DNA of 15,392 nucleotides, taken from an uncultured Eubacteriales bacterium (GTDB taxonomy: Bacteria; Bacillota; Clostridia; Christensenellales; Borkfalkiaceae). The stretch lies in contig CADBSX010000155.1 in NCBI GenBank assembly GCA_902797515.1, positions 1-15,392 of the forward strand, written 5' to 3'. Position numbers and translations under genes: made by a program. Every line of letters begins with the position of its first letter. Within the stretch, counting starts at the first letter, position 1. Below the pieces are notes generated by a model. That model saw only the letters and a program-made list of their open reading frames with translations, did no database searches and was not told where the DNA came from. Below, piece by piece: positions 3,101 through 7,490 of the stretch.

Positions 3101-3778
3101 ATGAAAAGGATCGGAATGGTTGTCGCAATGCAAAAAGAGATAATCCCTTTTATCGAATCGCAGAAAGTCGCGGTGAAAAATCTTAACGTATGCGGTTTCG
3201 ATTTGTCGGTTTTCAATTTAGGGGATTGCGAGATTTACTGCGTCCGTTCGGGCGTCGGCGAGATATACGCCGCCGCGGCGGCGCAGTTGCTCATATGCGA
3301 ATATAACGTCGGAATAATAATAAACTTCGGAGTGTGCGGCGCGCTTTCCGGAAGCGTAAAGACGGGAACGGTTTACGCTGTAAAAGGAGTCGCGCATTAC
3401 GATTTCGACCTTACTCCGTTCGGACTTGAAAAGGGGCAATATCCCGATTATCCGTCCGCGATAGTCGAAACCGACAGGTCTTTGCTCGATAAACTCGCCG
3501 AAAGCGCGGACGGGATAAGAGAAGTTATTTGCGCGTCGGCGGATAAATTCGTCGAGGACGAAAAGATAAAAACCGAACTGCGCGAAAAATACGGCGCGGA
3601 AATCTGCGAAATGGAAAGCGCGGGCGTGCTTATGACCGCTAAAAACGCGGGCGTTCCCTGCCTTATCATAAAGGCGGTCTCGGACGGCGACGGCGGCGCG
3701 GAAGAATATAAAAAGACGGTCAACTCGGCGGCTAAAGAATATATCGGCATAATAAACCGCCTTATCGGAAAATTATAA
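3101..3778 (+). CDS. mtnN: 5'-Methylthioadenosine/S-adenosylhomocysteine nucleosidase
   Basis: A 225-residue nucleosidase that cleaves adenine from methylthioadenosine, S-adenosylhomocysteine and 5'-deoxyadenosine, by-products of S-adenosylmethionine use. It starts in the usual way with MKRIGMVVAMQKE, giving the catalytic-region Glu13. It continues with the RSGVGEI loop (49-55), NFGVCGAL (75-82), the substrate-pocket stretch YDFDLTPFG (100-108), Glu172 in EMES and the catalytic acid Asp195 in KAVSDGD. Length is typical. A GGAAGG at 3083-3088 lies 12 bases before the ATG, a slightly long spacing. It heads a co-directional set; the next gene begins 41 bases downstream. A TATATT at 3073-3078 may be its -10 box but no clear -35 was found. 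Confidence 0.92.
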   Translation: MKRIGMVVAMQKEIIPFIESQKVAVKNLNVCGFDLSVFNLGDCEIYCVRSGVGEIYAAAAAQLLICEYNVGIIINFGVCGALSGSVKTGTVYAVKGVAHYDFDLTPFGLEKGQYPDYPSAIVETDRSLLDKLAESADGIREVICASADKFVEDEKIKTELREKYGAEICEMESAGVLMTAKNAGVPCLIIKAVSDGDGGAEEYKKTVNSAAKEYIGIINRLIGKL

Positions 3779-3819: not shown

Positions 3820-4587
3820 GTGAGTAATAGGGAAATAAAACGCGGACTCGCTCTCGGCAGCGGCGGAATAAAGGGCATGGCGCATATAGGCGCGTTGGAA
3901 GTCTTTTACGAAGAAGGGATAATCTTCGACGTGGTGGCGGGAACGAGCGTAGGAAGTCTTGTCGGCGCGTTGTACGCGAGAGGATACGCGCCGAAAGAGA
4001 TAATAGATTTAAAAGACGAGTTGTTCGCCTTCTGCAAAGCGGATTTCGTCGCGACGCCTTTCGGGGGACTTGTAAAGGCGATGCGTAAGATATTCGGAGG
4101 GGCGACTTTCGACGACTTGAAAAAGCCTTTCGCCGCCGTGGCGACGGACGCGGACACCGGCGAAGAGGTAGTCATCAGTGAAGGCGATCTCGCGACCGCG
4201 GTCGCGGCGTCGTGCGCCGTGCCGCCCGTGTTCAGGCACGTAGCGAGAGACGGAAGAAACCTCGTTGACGGGGCGTTCGTAAATTACGTTCCGTCGGACG
4301 CCGCGAAAAAACTCGGCGCGGAAAAAGTCGTCGCGATAAATCTCGGAAAGGGAAACGACTACAACGGGAAGATAAAATCCGCGCTCGACAGGACTTATCC
4401 CCGAAACGGCGTGATCTACGGTAACAGAAGTAAACGCTATTACGACTGTTCCGACGTGTTTATAGAGCCCGAACTTACGGGCGCGAAGGCGATGGGACTG
4501 AAAGGTCTCGGAAAGATATACGAGGCGGGATACGTCGCCGCCGCGGAAAAAATTACGGAAATAAAAAAGATCTTGAAAATATTATGA
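3820..4587 (+). CDS. Patatin-like phospholipase family protein
   Basis: A 255-residue serine acyl hydrolase of the bacterial patatin group (RssA/YchK-like). The catalytic dyad is intact: Ser43 in the GTSVG nucleophile elbow (41-45) and Asp150 in VDGAF. The oxyanion loop GSGGIKG (13-19) is close to the N-terminus, as in the family. There is no signal peptide or membrane segment, so it probably acts in the cytoplasm or at the inner membrane face on phospholipids or acylglycerols. The start is GTG at 3820; ribosome-binding sequence is weak (AGG about 13 bases upstream) and the first downstream ATG would remove the oxyanion loop. Its stop overlaps the next start as ATGA (4584-4587), so the two are likely translationally coupled. 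Confidence 0.9.
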   Translation: MSNREIKRGLALGSGGIKGMAHIGALEVFYEEGIIFDVVAGTSVGSLVGALYARGYAPKEIIDLKDELFAFCKADFVATPFGGLVKAMRKIFGGATFDDLKKPFAAVATDADTGEEVVISEGDLATAVAASCAVPPVFRHVARDGRNLVDGAFVNYVPSDAAKKLGAEKVVAINLGKGNDYNGKIKSALDRTYPRNGVIYGNRSKRYYDCSDVFIEPELTGAKAMGLKGLGKIYEAGYVAAAEKITEIKKILKIL

Positions 4588-6611
4588 AAATTTTACCGAA
4601 AGAAAATTTGTACGGCGAATTCATCGTTCCGCCGGATAAGAGCATAACGGAAAGGGCGATAGCCCTCGGCGGCGTCGCGACGGGAAAGACTTACCTTGTC
4701 AATCCTATACTTAACGACGAGATATACACGATGATAACGTGTATGAAAAAACTCGGCGCAAAAATCAGGCTGAAAAACGGGATAATGGAAATAAAGAGCG
4801 CGAAAAAATTGCGTTCGGAGCAGAGGCTCGATTGCGGCGACAGCGCGACGATACTCCGCTATCTATGCGGGATAACGGCGGGGAGCGGCGTGAGGGCGAT
4901 ACTCACCGGCAGTAAAAGTTTGTGTCAGATCCCGATGCGGCAAGTGAAAGAGCCGCTCGAAAAGATGGGCGCGACGGTCGCGCTCACGAGATATTCCGTT
5001 CCGCCCGTACTCGTCGAGGGGGCGAGCGTAAGACCTGTCGAATACGATATGCCGATAGGATTTTCGCCCGTTAAAAGCGCCGTTCTTTTATGCGCGCTCA
5101 CGGGCGGCGTAAGGGCGAAGATTACGGAAACCACGCCTTCGAGAGATCATACCGAAATACTTCTCAAAGAGATGGGCGCGAAAATACATAAAGACAAAGA
5201 CGACGGGACGATAGTCCTCGAAAAGAGCGAGATCGTCGGAAAGAGGTTTTATATCTGCGGCGATACGACGTGCGCGCTTTACTATCTCGCGCTCGGTCTT
5301 ATCGGCGGAAAAGTCACGTGCAGGAACGTCGGGATAAATCCGACGAGGATGCAGGCGATAGACGTACTTCGCCGTATGGGCGCGAGGATAGAGATAGAGA
5401 ACAAACGCAAAGTTTCGGGCGAATATATAGGCGATATCACCGCGTATAAGAGCAAGTTAAGGGCGACGCACGTGCTTTTTGAAGAAACCGCGACGATGCT
5501 CGACGAACTTCCCGCCGTCGCCGTTTTGATGGGGCTCGCGGAGGGCGAGAGCATCATATGCGGACAGGGCGATCTGAAACTCAAAGATTTCGATAAACTT
5601 TCCGACCTCGGACGGCTGATAGACGCTCTCGGAGGAAAGAGCAGGATATTCGACGGCGGACTTATAATAAAAGGCGTCGAAGGATATAAAGGCGGAAACG
5701 CGATCGCGTTCGACGATCCTTACGTCGCGATGGCGGCGGCGGTCGCTCTTACCGTTTCGGAACAGGGCGGAGATATAAACGAAGAACCGGTAAAAAAAGT
5801 CTATCCCGATTTTTTCGCGGAATTCGGCAAAAATTCTTTCGCGGCTTACGGAAAAGACGTGCCGAGCCTGAAAAGCGAGATGAATTATTTTATTCTTTCC
5901 TCTCTCGGCGTCGGCAGTTTCTCTTATTCGACCGTAAGTCCGTCCGTCGGCAAAGTCGTGAAGAGGGATTTTTCGGAACTCAAAGAATACGACGGCTATA
6001 ACGTTTCATCCAAGTATTACGTCGAGGCGATGAAGAGAGTTATGAAATTGCAGGGAACCGCTAAAACGGTCAGAGCTATCGACCTCGTAAAAGGGCTTAA
6101 AGGTTACGCTGCGGCGGGAGAAGGTTTCGTTTCCGCCATGAAAGCGGAAAAGACGGAACTTTCGGGGAAAAGAGTACTCGTCGTCGGTTGCGGCGTCGTC
6201 GGTAAAAGCGCGATCGTAGCCCTTCTCGCGGCAAAGGCGCGAGTTGACGTTTACGACGTTCTTCCGCACGTCGCTCTCGAATTCAAAAAGCGGATCAAGG
6301 AAAACGTTTACGTTCTCCGCGAAATTTCGGAAGATACGGAATACGACGTTATCGTAAACGCCGCGCCCGAGGCAGACGCCGAAACCGTTTCGCAGAAAGT
6401 ACTTGAAAAATGTCCCGTTTTCGCGGATACTACGTCTTATAAAAAGAGTAAAATGGCGGAAATTTGCGAAAAAGCGGGCGGGAAAGCGATAGGCGCGAAG
6501 TCGTTCGAGTTTTTCAGGGCGTATTATTCGGTATGTATATTCCTTAAACGCGATCCTTCGGAAGAAGAGGCGATGGGACTGTACGGAAAATTTATAAAGA
6601 GCGAAAGGTGA
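4584..6611 (+). CDS. Fused EPSP synthase-like / shikimate dehydrogenase-like protein with degenerate active sites
   Basis: A 675-residue fusion. Residues 1-415 have the AroA fold: VPPDKSITER (Lys19, Ser20, Arg24 kept), LDCGDSATILR (82-92), SRDHTE (186-191), the catalytic-type Asp307 in LDELP and Lys405 in KKVYP. Several residues expected for catalysis differ: the KRPM arginine is Ile116, the S-x-Q motif is F160-S-P162, ESDR is DFDK (335-338) and DHR is DPY (378-380). Residues about 419-675 align along a whole AroE: SLKSEMN (428-434) for the substrate S-x-S, GYNVSSKYY (471-479), GYAAAGEGF (507-515), GCGVVG (535-540), VNAAP (591-595) and a final GAKSFEFFRA. The catalytic Lys is Tyr479 and the N-T-D is A509-A-A511. 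It is coupled to the patatin gene by ATGA and ends six bases before the protease gene. Automatic annotation would probably say aroA; I infer it does not perform the standard reactions. Fold assignments are firm, function unknown. Confidence 0.85.
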   Translation: MKILPKENLYGEFIVPPDKSITERAIALGGVATGKTYLVNPILNDEIYTMITCMKKLGAKIRLKNGIMEIKSAKKLRSEQRLDCGDSATILRYLCGITAGSGVRAILTGSKSLCQIPMRQVKEPLEKMGATVALTRYSVPPVLVEGASVRPVEYDMPIGFSPVKSAVLLCALTGGVRAKITETTPSRDHTEILLKEMGAKIHKDKDDGTIVLEKSEIVGKRFYICGDTTCALYYLALGLIGGKVTCRNVGINPTRMQAIDVLRRMGARIEIENKRKVSGEYIGDITAYKSKLRATHVLFEETATMLDELPAVAVLMGLAEGESIICGQGDLKLKDFDKLSDLGRLIDALGGKSRIFDGGLIIKGVEGYKGGNAIAFDDPYVAMAAAVALTVSEQGGDINEEPVKKVYPDFFAEFGKNSFAAYGKDVPSLKSEMNYFILSSLGVGSFSYSTVSPSVGKVVKRDFSELKEYDGYNVSSKYYVEAMKRVMKLQGTAKTVRAIDLVKGLKGYAAAGEGFVSAMKAEKTELSGKRVLVVGCGVVGKSAIVALLAAKARVDVYDVLPHVALEFKKRIKENVYVLREISEDTEYDVIVNAAPEADAETVSQKVLEKCPVFADTTSYKKSKMAEICEKAGGKAIGAKSFEFFRAYYSVCIFLKRDPSEEEAMGLYGKFIKSER

Positions 6612-6617
6612 GAGAAG

Positions 6618-7490
6618 TTGAAAAATAAGTCTTTCACGAGCGGTCTTTCGGTAAGCGTGTTCGCGCTTACGATGATATTTTTAAGTCTTATTTTTTCCGT
6701 CGCGTTCCGCGCGTCGGGAGCGGATACGGAAAGCGCGGCGGCGCGCGCGATCTTTCAGTTGCCGTGTCTTTCGGGCGCGGCGGCGGTTTTTCTCTATTGC
6801 CGTTTCACGCTCGGAAAAGAGGCGTACCGTTTCGGCGGTTTTAAGGCGGCGGGCGCAAAATATTACGGATACGCGGCGATACTTCTCTTCGCGATGTTTT
6901 TCGGGCTTTCCGGATTGAATAATATCTTTACCGAATTTTTAAAGAGCGCGTTCGGTTACGAGAGCGAACCTATAAAACTTCCCGATTTTACGGTCGGCGG
7001 ATATATCCTTACGGTATTTTCTCTGTGCGTTGTTCCCGCGGCGTCGGAAGAGGCGGTTTTCAGGGGATTCGCGCTCGGCGGAATAAAGGGAAACAAATAC
7101 GTTTCGGCGTTAATTACGGGCTTTTTGTTCGCGGTTTACCATATGAATCCGACGCAGACGGCTTATCAGTTCGCGGTCGGCTTTCTTCTCGGACTTCTTT
7201 CCGCGTCGAGCGGCTCGGTATTTCCGTGCGTCGCGGTGCATTTTCTCAACAATTTCGCGATAATAACTCTTTCTTATTTCGCGCCCGACGCCCTGTCGTT
7301 CTCCGGCGCGTGGAAGATCGTTTCCGTTATCGCGGGGGCGGTCGCCGCCGCGGCGTATCTCGTTCTTATCGCGCTCGATAAGACGGAAAAGGAAGAGAAA
7401 GAAAATTGTTCTTATAAAAGTTTTATGCTCGGCGCGTCGATCGCCGCGCTGGCGTTTATTCTTTTCTGGACGGCGAATTTAGTGAAATGA
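6618..7490 (+). CDS. CPBP family intramembrane metalloprotease (Abi/CAAX type)
   Basis: A 290-residue polytopic membrane protein with about eight hydrophobic segments. All three family motifs are present: EExxxR as E144-E145-AVF-R149, FxxxH as F171-AVY-H175, and HxxxN as H208-FLN-N212. These form the glutamate/histidine metal site of Rce1-like proteases. Bacterial members include bacteriocin self-immunity and membrane-protein processing proteins, but the substrate cannot be told here. The start is TTG at 6618, with GAAAGGTGAGAG just upstream spanning the stop of the fusion gene; the next in-frame ATG would remove the first part of membrane segment 1. The stop overlaps the rlmH start as ATGA (7487-7490), implying coupling. 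No peptide precursor or bacteriocin gene is adjacent. Confidence 0.9.
   Translation: MKNKSFTSGLSVSVFALTMIFLSLIFSVAFRASGADTESAAARAIFQLPCLSGAAAVFLYCRFTLGKEAYRFGGFKAAGAKYYGYAAILLFAMFFGLSGLNNIFTEFLKSAFGYESEPIKLPDFTVGGYILTVFSLCVVPAASEEAVFRGFALGGIKGNKYVSALITGFLFAVYHMNPTQTAYQFAVGFLLGLLSASSGSVFPCVAVHFLNNFAIITLSYFAPDALSFSGAWKIVSVIAGAVAAAAYLVLIALDKTEKEEKENCSYKSFMLGASIAALAFILFWTANLVK

Follow-up and report, generated by a model that had tools for sequence, protein, structure and literature searches.

Which function can keep a protein made of two shikimate-pathway enzymes at a locus where no other gene of that pathway is present? This question is raised by a stretch of 15,392 nucleotides from an uncultured Eubacteriales bacterium (contig CADBSX010000155.1, termed the window), in which positions 4584..6611 of the forward strand form one uninterrupted open reading frame (ORF) of 675 amino acids that is first AroA-like and then AroE-like in profile searches and in an AlphaFold2 model. 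Our best explanation is that the fusion is probably a displaced shikimate enzyme, the remainder of an older operon, that has been kept as a pseudoenzyme for a second, non-catalytic role. The steps of fusion, displacement, erosion, retention and constraint in this account are supported by the comparison of related genomes.

A conserved AroA-AroE fusion with eroded active sites

The gene and its two halves are:
4584..6611, + strand: AroA-AroE fusion ORF, 675 amino acids, both active sites eroded (profiles, AlphaFold2 model, site scoring)
4584..5828, + strand: AroA (EPSP synthase)-derived half, residues 1-415
5829..6608, + strand: AroE (shikimate dehydrogenase)-derived half, residues 416-675

The AlphaFold2 model has a predicted local distance difference test (pLDDT) score of 92. 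It predicts a two-domain EPSP synthase fold for the N-terminal half and the two-domain fold of AroE across the full length of the C-terminal half. The fold matches of the halves are bacterial EPSP synthases (3rmt, 3slh, 1rf4) and AroE proteins (1p77, 2hk9), and the AROM structures 6hqv and 7u5s are also found among the matches of the fusion. Both halves score under the cut-offs of the corresponding NCBI models (aroA, 257.7 bits, cut-off 287.25; aroE, 48.8 bits, cut-off 200.2). For the C-terminal half the Pfam domain score favoured AlaDh_PNT_C, but the full-length NCBIfam profile and the models assign it to AroE, and another Rossmann family was therefore rejected. Thus, the claim of an earlier note on this DNA, that the gene is a true fusion in one frame, is borne out by the profiles, by the model and by its presence in 15/15 genomes of the genus.

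Active sites were scored at 15 AroA and 8 AroE positions, which were picked by the known motifs of the two enzymes; the AroA positions can be viewed in an alignment with solved AroA structures. By this sequence scoring the window fusion retains 7/15 AroA and 2/8 AroE residues. The AroA half is changed at D86 (Asn of GNSGT), I116, F160, P162, D335, K338, P379 and Y380, and the AroE half at K477 (Pro) and Y479 (Lys) of NVTxPxK, D500 (Asn), A510 and A511 (T-D) and R645 (Gln). The motifs concerned are:
4929..4931, + strand: residue 116, Arg of the RPM motif changed to Ile
5061..5069, + strand: residues 160-162, S-A/S-Q changed to F-S-P
5583..5597, + strand: residues 334-338, KESDR loop changed to KDFDK (Glu and Arg changed)
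5715..5723, + strand: residues 378-380, DHR motif changed to DPY
6000..6020, + strand: residues 473-479, NVTxPxK of AroE changed to NVSSKYY (Lys lost)
6111..6116, + strand: residues 510-511, T-D of AroE changed to A-A
6186..6203, + strand: residues 535-540, dinucleotide-binding turn GxGxxG retained (G535, G537, G540)
6516..6518, + strand: residue 645, Gln of AroE changed to Arg

We take position 116 to be the phosphoenolpyruvate (PEP)-side Arg of the EPSP synthase RPM motif, and the Glu and Arg of KESDR and the His and Arg of DHR to be further PEP-side or catalytic residues. All of these are replaced in the window (I116, D335, K338, P379, Y380). The S-A/S-Q motif, presumably the shikimate-3-phosphate site, is also lost in the window, and its Gln is kept in 28/31 non-redundant eroded rows of the alignment described below. 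In the AroE half, positions 479 and 511 presumably held the catalytic Lys and Asp, and positions 500 (Asn), 510 (Thr) and 645 (Gln) the substrate site; here the window has Y479, A511, D500, A510 and R645. Judged by these positions, residues required by either reaction are missing and the window protein is not a working bifunctional enzyme, although it reads like one.

The family was delimited by a protein search that admitted candidates of 0.55-1.75x the query length. It yielded 41 full-length fusion clusters of 674-722 amino acids, including the window's own (P0002), below which the score falls from 442 to 291 bits and the matches become single AroA proteins, about 418 amino acids long. Among the 40 other clusters, P0004 and P0005 retain all 23 scored positions and P0020 retains 22. 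The other 37 are eroded (5-14 of 15 in AroA, 1-5 of 8 in AroE). The relatives' genomes, so far as their records go, are metagenome bins. One genome of the genus, G007, has a fusion with complete sites (P0004; 15/15 and 8/8), and in the 14 others 13/13 scorable copies are eroded. The fusion of G010, split over two contigs, stands outside the site table. For G004, the DNA was read up to residue 508, and P0003 is the complete protein. No premature stop was found in the fusions of the 15 genomes, G004 included.

A tree was built from 56 sequences, fusions as well as joined AroA/AroE pairs, and rooted on the separate aroA/aroE pairs; in it the 44 eroded rows form a single clade (support 100/98). 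The intact fusions of G007 and P0005, and P0020, stand immediately outside this clade, followed by those of the genus g13 (G026, G302, G303). The tree omits 16 of the 72 aligned rows (duplicates and AroA-only rows); the count of 44 is what remains of the 72 once 21 rows that are intact or AroA-only, as well as 7 duplicates, are taken out. Keeping rows of <80% identity leaves 31 non-redundant eroded rows. The window's own cluster, P0002, was dropped. The sites were lost lineage by lineage, with a minimum of 1 to 7 changes on the tree for each position. Of the 44 eroded rows, 1 still has the AroE Lys, 3 have the KESDR Glu and 42-44 have the three GxGxx positions. Between 28 and 31 of the 31 non-redundant rows retain S161 (or A), S/T186, Q162 and D307, which made a shikimate-3-phosphate sensor attractive as a universal role. 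This role was nevertheless rejected as a rule, since the window has lost S160 and Q162.

Displacement of an older shikimate operon

The genes of the window, by their Pfam names, run MBL hydrolase-rho-glutamine amidotransferase-MTAN-patatin-fusion-CPBP-rlmH-tadA-prs-pth-mfd, and this order is largely conserved over the genus as far as the contigs extend. Three of these genes, around the fusion, are (all by Pfam):
3101..3778, + strand: MTA/SAH-nucleosidase-like gene (PNP_UDP_1, MTAN), upstream landmark
3820..4587, + strand: patatin-like phospholipase gene, which directly precedes aroC in G007, G026 and G302
6618..7490, + strand: Rce1-like (CPBP) membrane protease gene, downstream landmark

In G007 the corresponding locus reads patatin-aroC-aroB-aroAE-aroQ-aroK-ABC transporter-CPBP. 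The three g13 genomes have an operon aroC-fusion-aroQ-aroK with complete sites, and six scored genomes of the genera g2 and g10 have separate, adjacent aroA and aroE genes, also with complete sites, in the order aroC-aroB-aroA-aroE-aroQ-aroK. The simplest reading of these gene orders is that the fusion arose by the joining of neighbour genes in an ordinary operon. The genera of G017, G020, G034 and G107 have kept the old aroE-aroQ-aroK beside an AroA of a third kind, or beside none. In a separate unrooted AroA tree, which omitted the partial second AroA of G010, the fusions form one group with those of g13 and of G054, a genome of another family (97/83). The earlier note had placed the gene outside any shikimate operon, and in the window it is indeed an orphan. 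The locus nonetheless matches, by comparison with G007, a shikimate operon minus its other aro genes.

Some further features of these loci were seen. The G054 fusion (L134 7436-9436; another family of the order) lies in aroC-aroB-fusion-aroQ-aroK with a patatin gene upstream, and its AroA sits on a long branch in one group with those of the g13 fusions (96/87). A 2.5-kb ATP-binding cassette (ABC) transporter gene follows the fusion or aroK in ten relatives listed (e.g., L034 7514-10036, L035 10091-12577; in L035, ATPase plus FtsX-like permease by Pfam). It is absent behind the fusion in the window (gap 6612-6617) and in G004. The window contains no tRNA and no Rfam match at the gathering threshold.

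That no other aro gene lies near the fusion is correct for the window but not for the genome, which carries on G000:C178 a second operon, aroB-aroC-aroE::aroK-aroA-tyrA-aroF, with aroQ on G000:C206. Its aroE::aroK fusion was found at L078 2153-3397 (G000:C178); other relatives seen have a different operon order. Altogether, the 14 genus genomes other than G007 carry a second aro operon at another place. The second AroE has 8/8 positions in 13/13 copies scored (G009 not included), and the second AroA 13-14 of 15 in 13/13 full copies; the shortfall concerns positions 86 and 187, where the AroA proteins of other genomes vary as well.

The remaining pathway genes are distributed as follows. Apart from genes truncated at contig ends in G004 and G009, each genus genome has single copies of aroB, aroC and aroQ, which stand at the old locus in G007 only. 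There is one shikimate kinase per genome (G013 has one extra weak match). In G005, G007, G009, G012, G013 and G014, which showed no aroE::aroK fusion, it is encoded by aroK at the old locus; the remaining nine genomes have it in the new operon. The pattern is complementary in 15/15. By gene content, loss at the old locus thus tracks redundancy, the exception being the fusion, which is redundant in 14/14 genomes and kept in 14/14.

The new AroA proteins of 12 genomes group in the AroA tree with other genera of the family. In the window genome, however, the second AroA forms a pair with its counterpart from G032, a genome of another genus (100/99). Its second operon may therefore have originated separately; given these two placements, the pathway would have been replaced at least twice. 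As a contrast, neither the fusion nor an old-type AroA was found in any of ten genomes (0/10) of other family genera with a different aro operon (G016, G018, G019, G021, G027, G029, G030, G031, G032, G036), lineages of which not every one need once have had the old operon. These ten genomes show only AroA of the other type, with one additional short weak match each in G019 and G021.

Constraint on the eroded fusion and competing explanations

Selection was estimated as omega, the ratio of nonsynonymous (dN) to synonymous (dS) divergence, by the Nei-Gojobori method in two sister-species pairs, neither of which includes the window's lineage. Because dS is 0.7-2 in both pairs, the ratios are rough. 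For G003-G006, omega is 0.068 for the fusion (95% interval 0.050-0.090), 0.174 for the second AroA (AroA2) and 0.166 for the second AroE (AroE2, which is fused to AroK there). For G012-G013, the values are 0.057 (0.040-0.077), 0.215 and 0.194. The AroA half alone has an omega of 0.046 and 0.061 in the two pairs, respectively, with no overlap of intervals with AroA2 in either, and the AroE half alone 0.109 and 0.052. Protein identities agree in direction (fusion 0.91 vs 0.73 in G003-G006; 0.89 vs 0.59 in G012-G013). In both sister pairs, purifying selection acts more strongly on the eroded fusion than on the second AroA and AroE. A recent transfer of the fusion between sister species was rejected as the cause of its low dN, since the proportion of synonymous differences (pS) lies within the range of the other genes (0.50 vs 0.35-0.65 in G003-G006; 0.61 vs 0.60-0.70 in G012-G013). 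For the lineage of the window, G004 is the sole near-enough relative and synonymous sites are near saturation. Here the AroA half has a proportion of nonsynonymous differences (pN) of 0.26 and a pS of 0.65, similar to the 0.27 and 0.66 of MTAN and the 0.29 and 0.73 of RlmH.

Site rates locate where the constraint has changed. The AroA half is the steadier, with an identity of 0.71-0.74 vs 0.41-0.55 for the AroE half in five pairs among G001, G002, G003 and G008. The mean rate percentile of the pockets is 0.11 (AroA) and 0.04 (AroE) in intact proteins and 0.50 and 0.37 over all eroded rows, and the dinucleotide turn GxGxx remains slow (percentiles 0.09 and 0.05; 0.06-0.29 within clades). A rate scan of the AroA half that is independent of the chosen catalytic positions finds 12 formerly slow positions that have become fast (42, 110, 112, 306, 331, 334, 335, 337, 338, 379, 380 and 406), of which all except 42 lie in or beside active-site motifs. 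The reverse scan finds 10 AroA-half positions that are slower in the eroded proteins. Finally, 128 positions are conserved at 90% or more in the 31 eroded rows. Among these, 70 are old (present in at least 7/9 outgroup rows), 33 are common to the three intact genus fusions and rare in the outgroup, and so were fixed before erosion, and 4 are lacking in two of the three intact fusions, all 4 being present in P0020. These ages fit a role that predates the loss of catalysis; alternatively, they could reflect changes for fold stability on the stem of the genus.

The course of events supported by the comparison is as follows. The genes aroA and aroE became a single gene, active within a patatin-aroC-aroB-aroAE-aroQ-aroK operon. 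Chorismate synthesis then passed to an aro operon from another lineage, upon which aroB, aroC, aroQ and the redundant aroK left the old locus and the fusion remained. Both of its active sites were lost while strong purifying selection persisted. We infer a second, non-catalytic job that relies on the scaffold of AroA and on the AroE fold with its dinucleotide site, and that probably predates the takeover. By analogy with fungal AROM-derived repressors and with CitA (see below), the protein would most likely serve in regulation or scaffolding and respond to metabolites or NAD(P). The dinucleotide site may take part in this role; in most relatives the shikimate-3-phosphate site may do so as well, which is less clear for the window.

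The alternative that survives best, although we hold it to be unlikely, is a neofunctionalised enzyme, still catalytic, both pockets of which were remodelled for new substrates lineage by lineage. It is consistent with the strong purifying selection, the intact fold, the kept dinucleotide turn and within-clade pocket rates partly under the average. Pocket letters can moreover be constant inside clades: all 13 rows of the clade that holds P0013 and G011, for instance, have Lys at residue 645. However, the sole newly fixed pocket residue over the eroded clade is Ser161 (29/31), which intact P0020 has as well. The AroA pocket evolves at the average rate of its half over all eroded rows, and residues disappeared in different lineages.

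A redundant gene that decays slowly and is not yet broken is very improbable. Its redundancy for chorismate synthesis and the lineage-specific loss of sites would suit decay, but all 15 genus copies lack a premature stop, 41/41 listed fusion clusters are full length, and omega is 0.06-0.07, lower than for the second AroA and AroE. Moreover, aroB, aroC, aroQ and redundant aroK are gone from the old locus. Neither a broken frame nor relaxed constraint, the marks of a pseudogene, was found, for the window's lineage by pN and pS against G004 only. The view of the earlier note that this is an established gene is right, and the gene is, as the note had proposed, a good candidate for an undescribed function.

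Slightly less credible still is a working bifunctional EPSP synthase/shikimate dehydrogenase that acts as an isozyme of the second operon. Both halves are homologous to AroA and AroE, and relatives with complete or near-complete sites exist (G007/P0004, P0005, P0020), but the residues left in the window and the near-absence of the AroE Lys and KESDR Glu from the eroded rows contradict it. In addition, AroA and AroE with complete key residues are encoded elsewhere in the genome (G000:C178), so that the orphan fusion, unlike that of G007, is not the sole aroA/aroE. An assembly or gene-calling artefact is hardly conceivable: the fusion-bearing relatives with records are metagenome bins, but the fusion recurs in 15/15 genomes, with a similar flanking order, and several sources contribute 40 other protein clusters that contain it.

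Besides the roughness of the omega ratios, several observations weigh against a displaced pseudoenzyme with a second role. The interval of the AroE half overlaps that of AroE2 in one of the two pairs, G003-G006. Over longer evolutionary distances, the divergence of the fusion equals or exceeds that of AroA2 in most of the pairs compared, so that constraint would be episodic, with change apparently in bursts. Inside single eroded clades the pockets are less free (percentiles 0.31-0.53 for AroA, 0.26-0.45 for AroE). P0007 and P0010 retain 14/15 and 13/15 AroA sites, and residual or altered catalysis may therefore occur in those relatives. As for the history, G007 is 64% complete, which makes its lack of a second operon unsure; the patatin gene is not beside the fusion in G004, G012 and G013; and the separate AroA of g2 and g10 groups with Bacilli AroA (97/94), so g2 and g10 are not demonstrated to be the direct ancestral state. 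The neighbourhood points to no partner, ligand or phenotype of the fusion. Lastly, retention of dead enzymes may be a tendency of the genus, given that rho at the same locus is eroded in nine of its members.

That neighbouring gene deserves a description of its own. The rho rows are:
1109-2485: rho, intact in the window
L035 4577-5785: eroded rho; further eroded rows in L036, L038, L039, L041, L042, L043, L123 and L124

Intact rho was seen in the window, G004 and G011, and eroded rho in G001, G002, G003, G005, G006, G008, G009, G012 and G013. The eroded versions have lost the P-loop and other ATPase motifs and have kept a frame of about 402-450 amino acids. Seven of the nine genomes have one Rho_RNA_bind match, at the locus, and G012 and G013 have none. 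In these last two, the MBL hydrolase and eroded rho read as a single frame (L039 4843-6702, L042 4615-6480). The dN/dS of eroded rho is 0.24 (G003-G006) and 0.10 (G012-G013, dS saturated), and rho is less conserved than the fusion (identity 0.56 vs 0.91 in G003-G006).

If the fusion is a displaced enzyme with a second role, its history matters beyond this genus. Moonlighting and catalysis are often hard to separate, and here a pathway replacement would have separated them naturally: redundant genes disappeared from the old operon, and the single survivor, without sites but constrained, indicates that a core enzyme had a second function. The intact version of G007 and the dead versions of the window and others form a comparison set. 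Public annotation, moreover, names P0008 and P0028 EPSP synthases, which could mislead metabolic models and predictions of glyphosate sensitivity in gut bacteria.

Relation to known systems

A bacterial AroA-AroE fusion or EPSP synthase pseudoenzyme was not found among the matches listed from titles and abstract openings of the open-licence PMC literature; that search gave no sign that the fusion is an already well-characterised enzyme. Closest are the intact fusions of G007, G026, G302 and G303, which have the same architecture, belong to one fused clade and lie at the same locus (G007) or in a similar operon. They differ by their complete sites and the surrounding aro operon. The bacterial EPSP synthases and AroE proteins named above resemble the two halves in fold, but are separate catalytic proteins with complete sites. 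AROM also carries EPSP synthase and shikimate dehydrogenase domains on one chain; it is eukaryotic and catalytic and has a different domain order. It consists of five domains (PMC10512348).

Regulators derived from such enzymes offer a parallel. The fungal proteins QutR, GaaX and TanX are similar to a portion of AROM; the hypothesis is that they lack activity but can still recognise or bind the inducer (PMC10512348). As in the fusion, a multidomain shikimate-pathway enzyme would thus have become a protein that is inactive, by the working hypothesis of those authors. Unlike the fusion, they match the kinase-dehydratase-dehydrogenase region of AROM and have no such similarity to AroA-AroE, and they are encoded beside a Zn(II)2Cys6 activator gene (PMC10512348). 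No such partner was recognised at the window fusion: no paired transcription activator or DNA-binding gene is among the Pfam-identified genes of the window, a search that did not extend to 13.6-15.4 kb or to the unlabelled ORFs of relatives. In Caulobacter, the citrate synthase CitA controls the cell cycle independently of its catalysis, and a paralogue supplies activity (PMC7083601). CitA is likewise a bacterial metabolic enzyme with a functional paralogue and a catalysis-independent regulatory role, but it is still active, in contrast to the clade-wide loss of sites in the fusion. The fungal repressors and CitA are analogies and do not imply family membership. As a tentative extension, the fusion might be a bacterial counterpart of the fungal AROM-derived regulators: an enzyme that had a second role while catalytic, was freed by displacement, and would now be a dedicated NAD(P)- and metabolite-responsive regulator or scaffold in a whole gut clade, more tightly constrained between sister species than its replacements.

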